From Sandaracinus amylolyticus (GTDB lineage: Bacteria > Myxococcota_A > Polyangia > Polyangiales > Sandaracinaceae): a stretch of DNA of 64,000 bases. The notes below the pieces were generated by a model that saw only the letters and a list, made by a program, of their open reading frames with translations, was not told the origin of the DNA and searched no databases. The stretch covers positions 5,084,001-5,148,000 of the forward strand of contig NZ_CP011125.1 of NCBI RefSeq assembly GCF_000737325.1, written 5' to 3'. Positions 25,703 to 30,150 of the stretch are shown here, in pieces; positions within the stretch are counted from its first letter, which is position 1; each line of letters begins with the position of its first letter. The translations under genes and the position numbers were made by a program.

Positions 25703-27028
25703 TCAGGGCGCCCAGTACGCGTCGACGGCGAGCGCGAGCCGCGCCTCGACGTCGGCCTCGAGGACGAACGCGCCGTTCGCGTCGAGGCGCGTGGTGAACG
25801 CGGTGGTGCTCGTCCCGTCGCGCAGCTCGAGCGTCGTGTGCGGACCGCTCGGCGCGTCGGTGGTGGGCTCGGCGCCCGCGGCGAGGCTCCCGCGGCCCGC
25901 GCTCCACGCGCTGATGCGTCCCGACGCGGCGATCGCGCCCGCTGCGAGCGACGACGCGACCTGGCGCGGCGCGACGCCGAGCTCGATCTCCGCGCCGATG
26001 CGCGACGCGAGCGGGTGATAGAGCGCGTCGCCCTCGCGGTAGGGCACGAGGTACGCGGCGACGTCGAGGTAGACGAGCGCGTCGGCGCGCTCGGCGCGCA
26101 GCACGAGCTGCTGCGACGCGCTGGCGCCGATCACGAACGCGGTGCTCGCGCGGCTGGGGAACGTCGACTCGGGCGCGCAGGTCGCGATGCGCGCGAGGCC
26201 GCGGGTGTCGCCCTCGGCGCGCGCCGGACCGAGCGAGACGAACGCGCCCTCGTCGCAGAGCCCGTCGGGCCCGACGTGCGCCACGCCGATCAGGCCGACG
26301 ACGTCGCCGGGAAGCGCGCCGAGCGGCTCTTCGGCGATCTCGTTGAGCGCGAGCCGCTCGTCGACGTCGGCCGAGGTCGGGCCGTGCCACACGCCCGCCT
26401 CGTCCCATCGCGCCGTGTAGAGCCGCACCGGACGTTCGAGGAAGCGCACGCCGCGCGCGCCCGGCCCCGGCGGAGCGAGCACCGCGGTGAGCTCGACGAT
26501 CACGTCGGCCGCGGCGCCGTTGCTCGACTCGATGCGGAGCGTGCGCGACGCGCCGAGCATCGTGAGCAGCCCGCTGGTCCACGCGTCGTGCGGGCCCGCG
26601 CGCATGACGGGCTGCGACGAGATGGACTGGGGCGCGCCCGCGCGCACCTCGATGGTCGCGCCGGGCTCGCGCGGGACGAGCGTGAGCGTCGCGGCGATCG
26701 CGGCCGCGCCGGGCGGGAGCTCGAGGCCGGCGCACGCGTCGAGCGAGACGTCGATGCGCGAGTGCGTCGCGTCGAGCGCCGCGTGCGCACCGCACGGCGC
26801 GGCCTCGGCGCGCGTGTCGACGATCGCGACCGGGCGCACCGGGTACACCGCGAGCCCCGGCGCCTCTTCGGGCGTCGCCGCGTCCTCGCTGCCCATCGCG
26901 GCGTCGGTCGACGGACCGCCGTCGGCGACGTCGCCCACCGCCGGCCGCGCGTCGTCGCACGCGATGATCGCGAGAGCGGCCGCGATGAAGCCGAGGGCAC
27001 GACGGGCCCGTGACGAGCGCTGATCCAA
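25703..27028 (-). CDS. Lipoprotein of unknown function
   Basis: 441 residues from a TTG at 27028 (LDQRSSRARRALGFIAAALAIIACDD). The TTG is chosen because GGAGGTGGGA precedes it at good spacing; an ATG 15 codons upstream would give a Cys-rich leader without a ribosome site. Signal with lipobox IIAC, then an Asp/Ala/Gly linker. The body is repetitive and mostly beta (VYPVRPVAIVDTRA, SQQLVLRAERADALVYLDVAAYLV, GTSTTAFTTRLDANGAFVLEADV), resembling repeated extracellular domains found in myxobacterial surface proteins. No enzymatic motif. It is transcribed away from the palindromic intergenic region and toward the MYXO-CTERM gene. Confidence 0.65.
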   Translation of the reverse strand: MDQRSSRARRALGFIAAALAIIACDDARPAVGDVADGGPSTDAAMGSEDAATPEEAPGLAVYPVRPVAIVDTRAEAAPCGAHAALDATHSRIDVSLDACAGLELPPGAAAIAATLTLVPREPGATIEVRAGAPQSISSQPVMRAGPHDAWTSGLLTMLGASRTLRIESSNGAAADVIVELTAVLAPPGPGARGVRFLERPVRLYTARWDEAGVWHGPTSADVDERLALNEIAEEPLGALPGDVVGLIGVAHVGPDGLCDEGAFVSLGPARAEGDTRGLARIATCAPESTFPSRASTAFVIGASASQQLVLRAERADALVYLDVAAYLVPYREGDALYHPLASRIGAEIELGVAPRQVASSLAAGAIAASGRISAWSAGRGSLAAGAEPTTDAPSGPHTTLELRDGTSTTAFTTRLDANGAFVLEADVEARLALAVDAYWAP

Positions 27029-27085
27029 TCCCACCTCCACGCACGGCCGTCCCAGGCCGTCCACGCAGCCCATGCTGCGCGTGGA

Positions 27086-27186
27086 TGCGCGTCACGCCGC
27101 TGACGAGCGCTGACGCGTTTTGACGGGAATCGCGCCGCGTTTTTCCCGTCAGCGCAGGTCAGACCCCGTCAGCGGCGTGACGCGCA
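27086..27186. repeat. Nested inverted repeats in a divergent intergenic region
   Basis: Three nested perfect inverted repeats share one centre region: 20-bp arms at 27086-27105 and 27167-27186; 9-bp arms GCGCTGACG/CGTCAGCGC at 27107-27115 and 27147-27155; and 9-bp arms TGACGGGAA/TTCCCGTCA at 27121-27129 and 27143-27151. The motif TGACG recurs throughout, and TGACGAGCGCTGA also occurs as a direct copy at 27011-27023. The region holds no gene and lies between divergent lipoprotein genes. It may be a multi-site operator or a mobile-element relic. Confidence 0.8.
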
Positions 27187-27249
27187 AGCGCGGTCACCTT
27201 CACGTGAGCGCGGCAGCTCGGGAGCTCCCCGGCGTCGCACGGAGGAACC

Positions 27250-27666
27250 ATGCGCTCGATCGTTCGTGCTCTGTTCGTCGGCTCGCTGATGCTCGTCGGA
27301 TGTGCGCCGGAGGGCCCCGAGGGATCCGTCGCACCGCTCGCATGCGACACCCACGCGGATTGTCCCGCGCGCCACGCGTGCGAGCCCGAGGACGGCGGCC
27401 CGGTGTGCCGACCGCTCGGCGACGCGACCGGCTCGGGCGTGACGTGCGCCGTCGACACCGACTGCCCGTCCGGCGAGGAGTGCGAGATCGAGCACGGCGT
27501 CGCGTTCTGCAAGGCGCACGGCGGCGACGACGACGGCGCGCCGTCGGGCGCGGCGTGCACGAGCGACGCGGACTGCCCGTCCGGACAGGAGTGCGAGGTC
27601 GAGCACGGCGTCACGTACTGCAAGCCGCACGGTGGCGGCGGTGACGACGACGACGACGGGATCTGA
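27250..27666 (+). CDS. Cys-rich repeat lipoprotein
   Basis: 138 residues from ATG 27250 with GGAGG five bases upstream. Lipobox LVGC places the lipidated Cys at residue 18. After that come three copies of a 26-residue module with four Cys each. The clearest copies are DTDCPSGEECEIEHGVAFCK and DADCPSGQECEVEHGVTYCK, while the first (HADCPARHACEPEDGGPVCR) has diverged. Each module probably forms two disulfides. Acidic Gly/Asp spacers (GGDDDG, GGGGDDDDDG) separate or end them. Similar short modules occur in secreted myxobacterial proteins; the function is not known. A GGGAGCTCCC palindrome precedes the ribosome site. Confidence 0.8.
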   Translation: MRSIVRALFVGSLMLVGCAPEGPEGSVAPLACDTHADCPARHACEPEDGGPVCRPLGDATGSGVTCAVDTDCPSGEECEIEHGVAFCKAHGGDDDGAPSGAACTSDADCPSGQECEVEHGVTYCKPHGGGGDDDDDGI

Positions 27667-27682
27667 TCCGTTCGATCGCTGA

Positions 27683-27708
27683 ACCGTTGCGCATCGAGCC
27701 GCAACGGT
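27683..27708 (+). terminator. Hairpin terminator candidate
   Basis: Perfect 9-bp inverted arms ACCGTTGCG and CGCAACGGT with an 8-base loop, starting 17 bp after the Cys-rich lipoprotein stop and followed by CTTCTCTCC. It is 20 bp before the next plus-strand gene, so it could also attenuate read-through into it. Confidence 0.55.
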
Positions 27709-27727
27709 CTTCTCTCCACCCAGTGCG

Positions 27728-28360
27728 ATGTCGGAGGTTCGGGTGCGGCGGACGAAGAAGTGGCTGTGGATGATGAGCGCCGGGCTCGCGCTCTCGGCGT
27801 GCTCCGAGAGCCGTGGCGCCACGCCGGACGCGGCGCGCGAGACGACCGGCGACGCCGGCGCGATCGTGACGCCGCCGCTGCCGCTGCCCTACTACGAGGT
27901 GCCGGTCGCGGATCCTGCGCTCGCGCCGCACGCGCTCTTCTTCGTGCCCGACGTGCACGTGATCGTCGCCGCGGGCGAGGTCACGCTCACCTACGATTTC
28001 CCGCCGGATCTGAGCGGCGTCGAGGATCAGACCGTGACGCTGCGCGGCCCCGTCGGCCCCGTGGCGGGCCGTGAGATCGAGGGCACGACGCTGAGCGACG
28101 CGGTCGGCACCGGCACGTGCACCGTCGACGCGGCGGGTGTGGCGCGATGCACCGAGATCTTCACGGCGCTCCCGATCGACTACGCCGCCGCGCTCACCGC
28201 CGTCGAGGCGGGCGCGGCGAACGCCGAGGAAGCGCTCGCGCGCCGCGCCGTGGTCGATGCGTTCGTCTCGGATCCGATCGGCATCGTCGTGTTCGATCTC
28301 GCGACCGCGCTCGAGCCGAGCGGCGGCGACGACGACGACGATCACGAAGAGCACGACTGA
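27728..28360 (+). CDS. Lipoprotein of unknown function
   Basis: 210 residues from ATG 27728. Basic N-terminus RRTKKWLWMMSAGLALSAC with lipobox ALSAC, then a short low-complexity linker. The body has PYYEVPVADPALAPHALFFVPDVHVIVAAGEVTLTYDFPPDL, a beta-rich segment, and ends in an Asp/His/Glu-rich tail (GGDDDDDHEEHD) that could bind metal. No family recognised. It shares the acidic tail style with the Cys-rich lipoprotein just upstream, which suggests both face the cell exterior and may be functionally linked. Confidence 0.65.
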   Translation: MSEVRVRRTKKWLWMMSAGLALSACSESRGATPDAARETTGDAGAIVTPPLPLPYYEVPVADPALAPHALFFVPDVHVIVAAGEVTLTYDFPPDLSGVEDQTVTLRGPVGPVAGREIEGTTLSDAVGTGTCTVDAAGVARCTEIFTALPIDYAAALTAVEAGAANAEEALARRAVVDAFVSDPIGIVVFDLATALEPSGGDDDDDHEEHD

Positions 28361-28407
28361 TCACGCGAGCCTTGCGTCGCGAGCGAGGCTCGCCGAATCT
28401 TGCGCGC

Positions 28408-30150
28408 GTGGTCGGACGCGACTTGCGCGCGACGTTCCGCTCCGGGCTCCACCACGAAGTGCTCGCGCGCGCGTGGGACGCTCCGGATGCGGCGTTCGAG
28501 CCCGACGACGCTCCGTGCGTCGTCGGGTCGCTCGCGCTGCTCGGTCGCATCGACGAGGCGCTCGCGCTCGCCGACGACGTGCGCGCCGATCCGACGTCGA
28601 CCGACGCGATCGTGGTCGAGTCGCAGTTCTTCGCGATCGTCGGGCTCTGCCACGCGGGGCGCTACGCGGACGCCGAGAGCCGCGCGCGCAGCAACCTCCG
28701 CTACGCTGGCGCGAGCGATCCCAGGACGCGCTTCTTCGTCTTCCAGGGCATCGCGCTGTTCCGCTACTTCGTCGGTCGGATCGGGCGCGCGCGGCTCGCG
28801 TCGCGGCGCGCGCTGCGCGAGGCGGTGCGCGCGCGGTTCCAGTACGGACGCCTGCTCGCGCTCGATCTCCGCGGCCACGTGCTGGTGCAGCGCGGCGAGG
28901 TGAACGCCGGGCTGCGCGTGCTCGATCAGGCGGAGAAGCTCGCGATGGCGCTCGGCTTCGAGGGGCATCGCGTGTCGATCGAGTGCGCGCGCCTCGCCTA
29001 CGAGAACCGTCACGGGCGGCGCGACGCCGAGGTCGAGAGCGCGCTCACCCAGGTCGCGATCGCGAGCATGGGCAACGTGTACGCGCTGCGCTCGGCGTGG
29101 CTCGAGCTCGCGTTCCGCAGCGCGCTCTCCGGGGATGCCGAGCGCGGCCGCGAGGCGCTCGATCGCGCCGCGGAGCACACGATCCCCGAGTCGGACCATC
29201 GCGGTCGCGCGCGCTTCTCGATCACCCTCGCGCTGCTGGCGCGGCTCGATCGCTCGCTCGACGACGCGCGCGAAGCGCTCGACGATGCCCGGCGCGCGCT
29301 CGAGGCGGGACACGATCGGAGCCTCCTCGCCGAGCTGATCGCGTGGGATCGCGTGCTCGGCACCGGGCTCTTCGAGCCGGATCTCGCGCGCTCCGAGTCG
29401 CTCGCGCGGCTCACCGACGGGCTCGTCGCGCGCGCGCTCGAGGCGATGGACGGCGGGCGCACGCTCGGCAGCGCGGTCGCGAACGAGTCGCCGCTCTGGG
29501 CGCTGCTCGCGAGCGATGCGCCGCACGCGGCGCGCGTCGCGGTCGCGCTGCGACGCGGCTGGCTCGGGCTCGTGCCGCTCTTGATCGCGCGGGAGCCGGG
29601 GCGCGATCTCGTGTTCACGTCGGACGCGCTCGTCGCGGCGGATCACGGCACGGTGGTGCACGCGACGAAGCTCCCGGGCCACGCGCGCGAGCTCCTGGCC
29701 GCGCTGGGCGCGGGCGAGCGCACCAAAGAAGCGCTGATCAACGAGGTGTGGCGCGTCGCGCGTTACTCGCCGCAGCACCACGACGCGGTGATCCACACCG
29801 CGATCGCGCGCCTGCGCCGCACGCTCGGCCCGCTCGCGGAGTGGATCCGCACGACCCCGCAGGGCTACGCGCTCCAGAGCGGCGTGCGCGTCGTGCGCCT
29901 CGACGACGCAGGGCACGACGCGCCGGTCGCGAGCACGACGTCGGAGCCGGAGCAGCCCGAGCGCGAGGAGCGCGATCCGATCCTCGCGCTCCTCGCGGAG
30001 CGCCCGCTGCGCTCGACCGAGCTCGCCGAGCGGCTGCGCGTGTCCGAAGCGACCGCGCTACGACGCCTGCGCGCGCTCGTCGCGTCGGGCGCGATCACCC
30101 GCGACGGCACGGGCAAGCGAACGCGCTACGTGCTCACCGCGTCCGAGTGA
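28408..30150 (+). CDS. TPR regulator with OmpR-type winged helix and second C-terminal HTH
   Basis: 580 residues from GTG 28408 (VVGRDLRATFRSGLHHE); a TTG at 28372 is an alternative, and neither has a clear ribosome site. Residues 1-410 form helical TPR-like repeats (ALALADDVRADPTSTDAIVVE, GRYADAESRARSNLRYAGA, GEVNAGLRVLDQAEKLAMALG). Residues 435-500 are an OmpR/PhoB-type winged helix (ERTKEALINEVWRVARYSP, VIHTAIARLRRTLG, IRTTPQGYAL). A second HTH of MarR/ArsR style ends the protein ([28 protein letters not shown]). This architecture suits a transcription factor that senses a partner through the TPRs. It converges with the beta-propeller lipoprotein gene, 4 bp away. Confidence 0.7.
   Translation: MVGRDLRATFRSGLHHEVLARAWDAPDAAFEPDDAPCVVGSLALLGRIDEALALADDVRADPTSTDAIVVESQFFAIVGLCHAGRYADAESRARSNLRYAGASDPRTRFFVFQGIALFRYFVGRIGRARLASRRALREAVRARFQYGRLLALDLRGHVLVQRGEVNAGLRVLDQAEKLAMALGFEGHRVSIECARLAYENRHGRRDAEVESALTQVAIASMGNVYALRSAWLELAFRSALSGDAERGREALDRAAEHTIPESDHRGRARFSITLALLARLDRSLDDAREALDDARRALEAGHDRSLLAELIAWDRVLGTGLFEPDLARSESLARLTDGLVARALEAMDGGRTLGSAVANESPLWALLASDAPHAARVAVALRRGWLGLVPLLIAREPGRDLVFTSDALVAADHGTVVHATKLPGHARELLAALGAGERTKEALINEVWRVARYSPQHHDAVIHTAIARLRRTLGPLAEWIRTTPQGYALQSGVRVVRLDDAGHDAPVASTTSEPEQPEREERDPILALLAERPLRSTELAERLRVSEATALRRLRALVASGAITRDGTGKRTRYVLTASE

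Follow-up and report, generated by a model that had tools for sequence, protein, structure and literature searches.

A 101-bp near-palindrome (positions 27086-27186; symmetry centre, 27136) was found in the window, namely the whole 64,000-nucleotide stretch of Sandaracinus amylolyticus DNA analysed here, and it is likely to be a cis-regulatory operator with multiple half-sites, bound by the transcription factor that the third downstream gene encodes; the operator is probably autoregulatory. Judged from its sequence and that of related loci, the array appears to be an unusually elaborate form of the multi-half-site operator, a known kind of element. With this prediction, an orphan palindrome becomes part of a regulator-operator pair that is concrete enough to be tested, and is tied to a small lipoprotein gene module of several myxobacterial genera.

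The element contains three perfect inverted repeats, all of which had been reported in a preliminary description of the region and were verified: an outer one of 20 bp (27086-27105/27167-27186), a middle one of 9 bp (GCGCTGACG; 27107-27115/27147-27155), and an inner one of 9 bp (TGACGGGAA; 27121-27129/27143-27151). Since the middle and inner repeats have 5 nt of their right arms in common, these two repeats cannot pair simultaneously. As a whole, the element is an inverted repeat with 44-nt arms that are 82% complementary; it is best described by its phased array of cores rather than by the stem. The TGAC cores start at 27101, 27111, 27121, and 27178, the GTCA cores start at 27091, 27148, 27158, and 27168, and all eight are mirrored exactly about 27136. 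Six of them make up two converging triplets, each of direct repeats that follow one another every 10 bp (left triplet, 27101-27126, plus strand; right triplet in the opposite orientation, 27147-27171, minus strand), and the other two are an outward-facing pair (TGACGCGCAT, 27085-27094, minus strand; TGACGCGCAA, 27178-27187, plus strand). The inner half-site of the left triplet (TGACGGGAAT; 27121-27130, plus strand) is the sole 10/10 match to TGACGSGAWT in the window, and its mirror is TGACGGGAAA (27142-27151, minus strand); beyond TGAC(G), the half-sites other than the inner ones fit the consensus weakly. The convergent half-sites of the array are spaced by 21, 41, and 61 bp.

The palindrome lies in the intergenic region 27029-27249, between a minus-strand lipoprotein gene (25703-27028; TTG start at 27028, Shine-Dalgarno sequence GGAGGTGG) and a plus-strand gene for a Cys-rich lipoprotein (27250-27666; ATG at 27250). 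The latter, which is the first gene downstream of the array, belongs to NCBIfam TIGR04201 (Myxo_Cys_RPT), a myxobacterial repeat defined around TraA (PMC3325183). It is followed on the plus strand by a second lipoprotein gene (27728-28360), of a family conserved beside the regulator, and by the regulator gene itself (about 28402-30150; the exact start is uncertain). The left, divergent lipoprotein has 83% identity to its counterpart in the congeneric genome G002 and only remote relatives (about 30% identical) elsewhere; a Pfam search matched no family. A direct copy of TGACGAGCGCTGA, placed by the preliminary description in the intergenic region 90 bp away, is indeed an exact match (27011-27023, plus strand; 90 bp from 27101), but it sits in the coding sequence of this left lipoprotein, at codons 2-6; it is possibly an auxiliary site, or a coincidence. 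Both plus-strand lipoproteins (27250-28360) end in Asp-rich or His/Asp-rich tails, and these tails, together with the ArsR-like C-terminal domain of the regulator, suggest metal as a candidate signal for the solenoid of the regulator, although that domain is without cysteine.

In the structural model of the regulator, a TPR-like helical solenoid (residues about 8-320) is followed by a winged helix (about 401-500) and by a second winged helix (526-578). Because the search with the whole model was dominated by TPR matches, the middle winged helix was folded and searched alone. It was predicted with a pLDDT of 87.3 as an N-terminal beta-sheet, three helices, and a C-terminal hairpin, and its structural matches (Z up to 10.8 over 84 residues, 1.9 A) included the VanR, GlnR, CovR, and PhoB domains as well as the PhoB-pho box, KdpE-DNA, GlnR, and AfsR complexes. 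The modelled domain has the OmpR/PhoB winged-helix fold; the sequence score for an OmpR-type domain (19.6 bits) is below the Pfam cut-off (26.2 bits). Domains with this fold are known to read 11-bp direct repeats, which recur once per helical turn (PMC2648988, PMC10936776), and the PhoB box consists of two 11-bp repeats (PMC2648988). Direct-repeat boxes of this kind (spacing, about 10-11 bp) are present in the array at 27101/27111/27121 and at 27148/27158/27168, as in the pho box, OmpR F1, and KdpE sites, all of which are read by the same fold as the middle domain that is predicted to bind the array. In contrast to these operators, the array in the window comprises two converging triplets plus an outward pair, is dyad-symmetric, and is built on a TGACGSGATT-like half-site.

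The regulator departs from each family with which it was compared. Unlike OmpR/PhoB response regulators, it gave no match to a receiver domain, residues 8-320 being the helical solenoid. SARP activators and AfsR, which use direct repeats at 11 or 22 bp (PMC10936776), likewise combine an OmpR-type domain with TPR-like helical repeats and have no phosphorylated receiver, but their DNA-binding domain is N-terminal and followed by a BTA domain, whereas here the solenoid comes first, the OmpR-type domain after it, and the second winged helix last. The fold of the solenoid resembles RRNPP and MalT-type TPR regulators (NprR, Rap, AimR, and MalT domain III), with a structural Z of about 19-23. TPR matches are common, however, and are not proof of kinship; moreover, neither the Pfam scan nor the model contained an N-terminal HTH like the Xre-type HTH of RRNPP proteins, and the DNA-binding domains are C-terminal. 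Among the ArsR/SmtB metalloregulators, SmtB and NmtR can be aligned with the C-terminal winged helix, but this domain scores 23.2 bits against an NCBIfam cut-off of 55, and the cysteine metal site is absent (no cysteine in residues 505-582). Judged by the features that define them, none of the known families compared accommodates this architecture, and a literature search for a comparable regulator in myxobacteria found nothing. It is conceivable but rather unlikely that the protein represents a one-component regulator family that has yet to be described, in which a sensor solenoid is joined to two different DNA-binding winged helices, one OmpR-type and one ArsR-like, and the operator grows by the addition of phased half-sites; if such a family exists, the dyad array with its eight sites would work as a cooperative switch with a steep response, one domain reading the direct repeats and the other bridging the symmetric halves.

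Homologues of the regulator, a few of them partial, were found in 22 of the class's 317 genomes, a count that includes the genome of the window; the named relatives with the same regulator belong to Myxococcales and Polyangia. Since at least one of the two lipoprotein families occurs in the same short stretch at 19 of the 21 loci profiled outside the genus, the regulator and the lipoproteins form, as far as gene neighbourhood tells, a conserved module. Where the Cys-rich lipoprotein is divergent from the regulator, the promoter region that they share carries TGACGSGATT...AATCSCGTCA upstream of the homologues. The convergent half-sites of other loci are usually 39-40 bp apart (50 bp in one case), to which the 41 bp in the window corresponds; an outward-facing pair (ATTCCCGTCA-N16-TGACGGG) occurs at two loci that belong to another family. 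A strong half-site, defined as TGACGSGAWT with at least 9 of 10 positions matched within 150 bp upstream of a regulator homologue, was present at least once at all 11 homologous loci where the regulator has the Cys-rich lipoprotein as a neighbour and at none of the seven where it does not (Fisher p 3e-5, a descriptive value, as the threshold and part of the consensus were fixed with the loci already in view, and as the loci share ancestry). Apart from G003, which is described below, six homologues that lack the Cys-rich lipoprotein had no site within 150 bp, one of them having a match at -260. As an out-of-sample check on the half-site, a weight matrix was made from the loci other than the window; 3 of its 10 best sites among 127,982 window positions fall inside the palindrome. 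Also, with a matrix made from a single family, the upstream sites in a different family are recovered, and 27111 takes third place among the window positions. These homologous loci support the earlier proposal of a regulator with multiple half-sites.

The strict inverted pair was found in 6 of the 317 genomes of the class, against none for the reversed-pattern control, and in three of the six it lies upstream of regulator homologues; no module protein was detected in the fetched flanks of the other three (G559, G372, and G109), where the pair is probably due to chance or to another system. In G451 (L089:1567-1616), a second inverted pair (TGACGCGATT...AGTCGCGTCA; 40 bp from start to start) precedes another lipoprotein-like ORF, which lies downstream of the regulator; this is a hint of a lipoprotein regulon, with the ORF as a candidate member. 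The half-site motif could serve to locate the regulon. Two other observations were made at these loci. The sequence CGAGTTTCG (or CGAGTTACG) is conserved on the lipoprotein side of the half-sites (L056-L059, L069-L071, L073, and L076) and is perhaps a promoter element of the Cys-rich lipoprotein. In G544 (L075), four TGACGAG units, resembling the unit TGACGAGCGC that is present in the window, are closely grouped ahead of a regulator homologue that has no Cys-rich lipoprotein.

A transcription factor other than the linked regulator might read the array, in which case the regulator would be just a co-inherited neighbour. The site does track the promoter of the Cys-rich lipoprotein rather than each regulator homologue, and two genes intervene between the array and the regulator in the window, which counts against the linked regulator. 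In addition, G003, a genome of the same family, retains the regulator and a lipoprotein but has a different palindrome (ATCACGCCA...TGGCGTGAT) upstream of the regulator (L055); this palindrome carries CTCACG direct repeats at 10-11 bp spacing and is possibly a diverged version of the operator. On the other side, at 11 loci of several genera the site lies in the promoter region shared by regulator and lipoprotein, and it persists through a change of gene order; an OmpR-fold protein also fits direct repeats at 10 bp. We regard a different factor as improbable, although it is the strongest of the alternatives.

If the array is the operator of the linked regulator, each triplet would be covered by OmpR/PhoB-type domains in a head-to-tail row along a single DNA face, so that the divergent promoter region would hold two rows of protomers facing each other. 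The bound array would then control the unit of Cys-rich lipoprotein, lipoprotein, and regulator, which closes an autoregulatory loop; the left lipoprotein on the divergent side is perhaps controlled as well. As the sign of regulation, autorepression is slightly favoured: at related loci, a -10-like NATAAT immediately ahead of the regulator start is overlapped by the right half-site; the left half-site would in that case sit near an activator-binding position. A sigma-70 promoter scan found nothing. A symmetric operator of two half-sites was probably extended to eight half-sites in this genus, giving rise to the palindrome; the natural series from two to eight offers a way to ask how operator copy number shapes the response.

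The same intergenic region was compared with that of G002, as the preliminary description had advised, and the array, which is at the orthologous place, proved to be conserved far better than its flanks (the two genomes differ at 5 positions of the 101-bp array and at 21 of 74 positions beside it; p 2e-5). The changes in G002 keep or create CTGAC (27120 T to C makes one, and 27167 C to G yields the variant CTGACC), and one of them breaks a stem pair while the half-sites persist. This points to the half-sites, not the hairpin, as the constrained feature, the changes being so few that they give an indication only. The comparison bears on the quite improbable explanation that the palindrome acts within the lipoprotein mRNA as a structured RNA element, either a leader hairpin or an attenuator. 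Such an element would agree with the conservation between two species and with the highly stable fold (z-scores, -8.6 and -9.1), but the near-equal stability on both strands is that of any DNA palindrome, the broken stem pair spares the half-sites, there was no Rfam match, and a terminator scan found no terminator-like site. Furthermore, the half-sites of other genera are present without a long hairpin, which also argues against a cruciform-prone element, physically possible as this earlier suggestion is.

The end of a mobile element, likewise proposed earlier, or a MITE or recombination site, is very improbable. The long perfect inverted repeat is of the terminal type, but the array is single-copy in its own genome (10,327,335 bp, single contig, GC-rich) and in that of G002, its position is orthologous in the two, and no transposase was found among the scanned neighbouring genes. 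Many unrelated copies in the genome would have marked a generic repeat; only the two arms themselves match the 20-bp arm exactly, and matches with 3 mismatches are about as numerous as for the reversed-pattern control.

That the palindrome arose by chance in GC-rich DNA can be dismissed for practical purposes: arms of up to 14 bp (the length of the runner-up) are ordinary in the window, but the exact symmetry of the eight cores, the fold z-scores, the half-sites of homologous loci, and the conservation of the array against diverged flanks contradict it. The 20-bp repeat is the longest inverted repeat of the window and exceeds the longest ones of 60 order-1 Markov windows (mean, 14.3; maximum, 18), and the eight TGAC/GTCA cores per 101 bp compare with 0.38 expected and with five at the next-densest spot. 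The earlier statement that the structure is beyond chance was borne out; it is the symmetric phased array that exceeds chance, the 20-bp arm alone being less striking genome-wide. The 16 bp that follow the palindrome (27187-27202), with another GTCA at 27193, are almost identical in both congeneric genomes.
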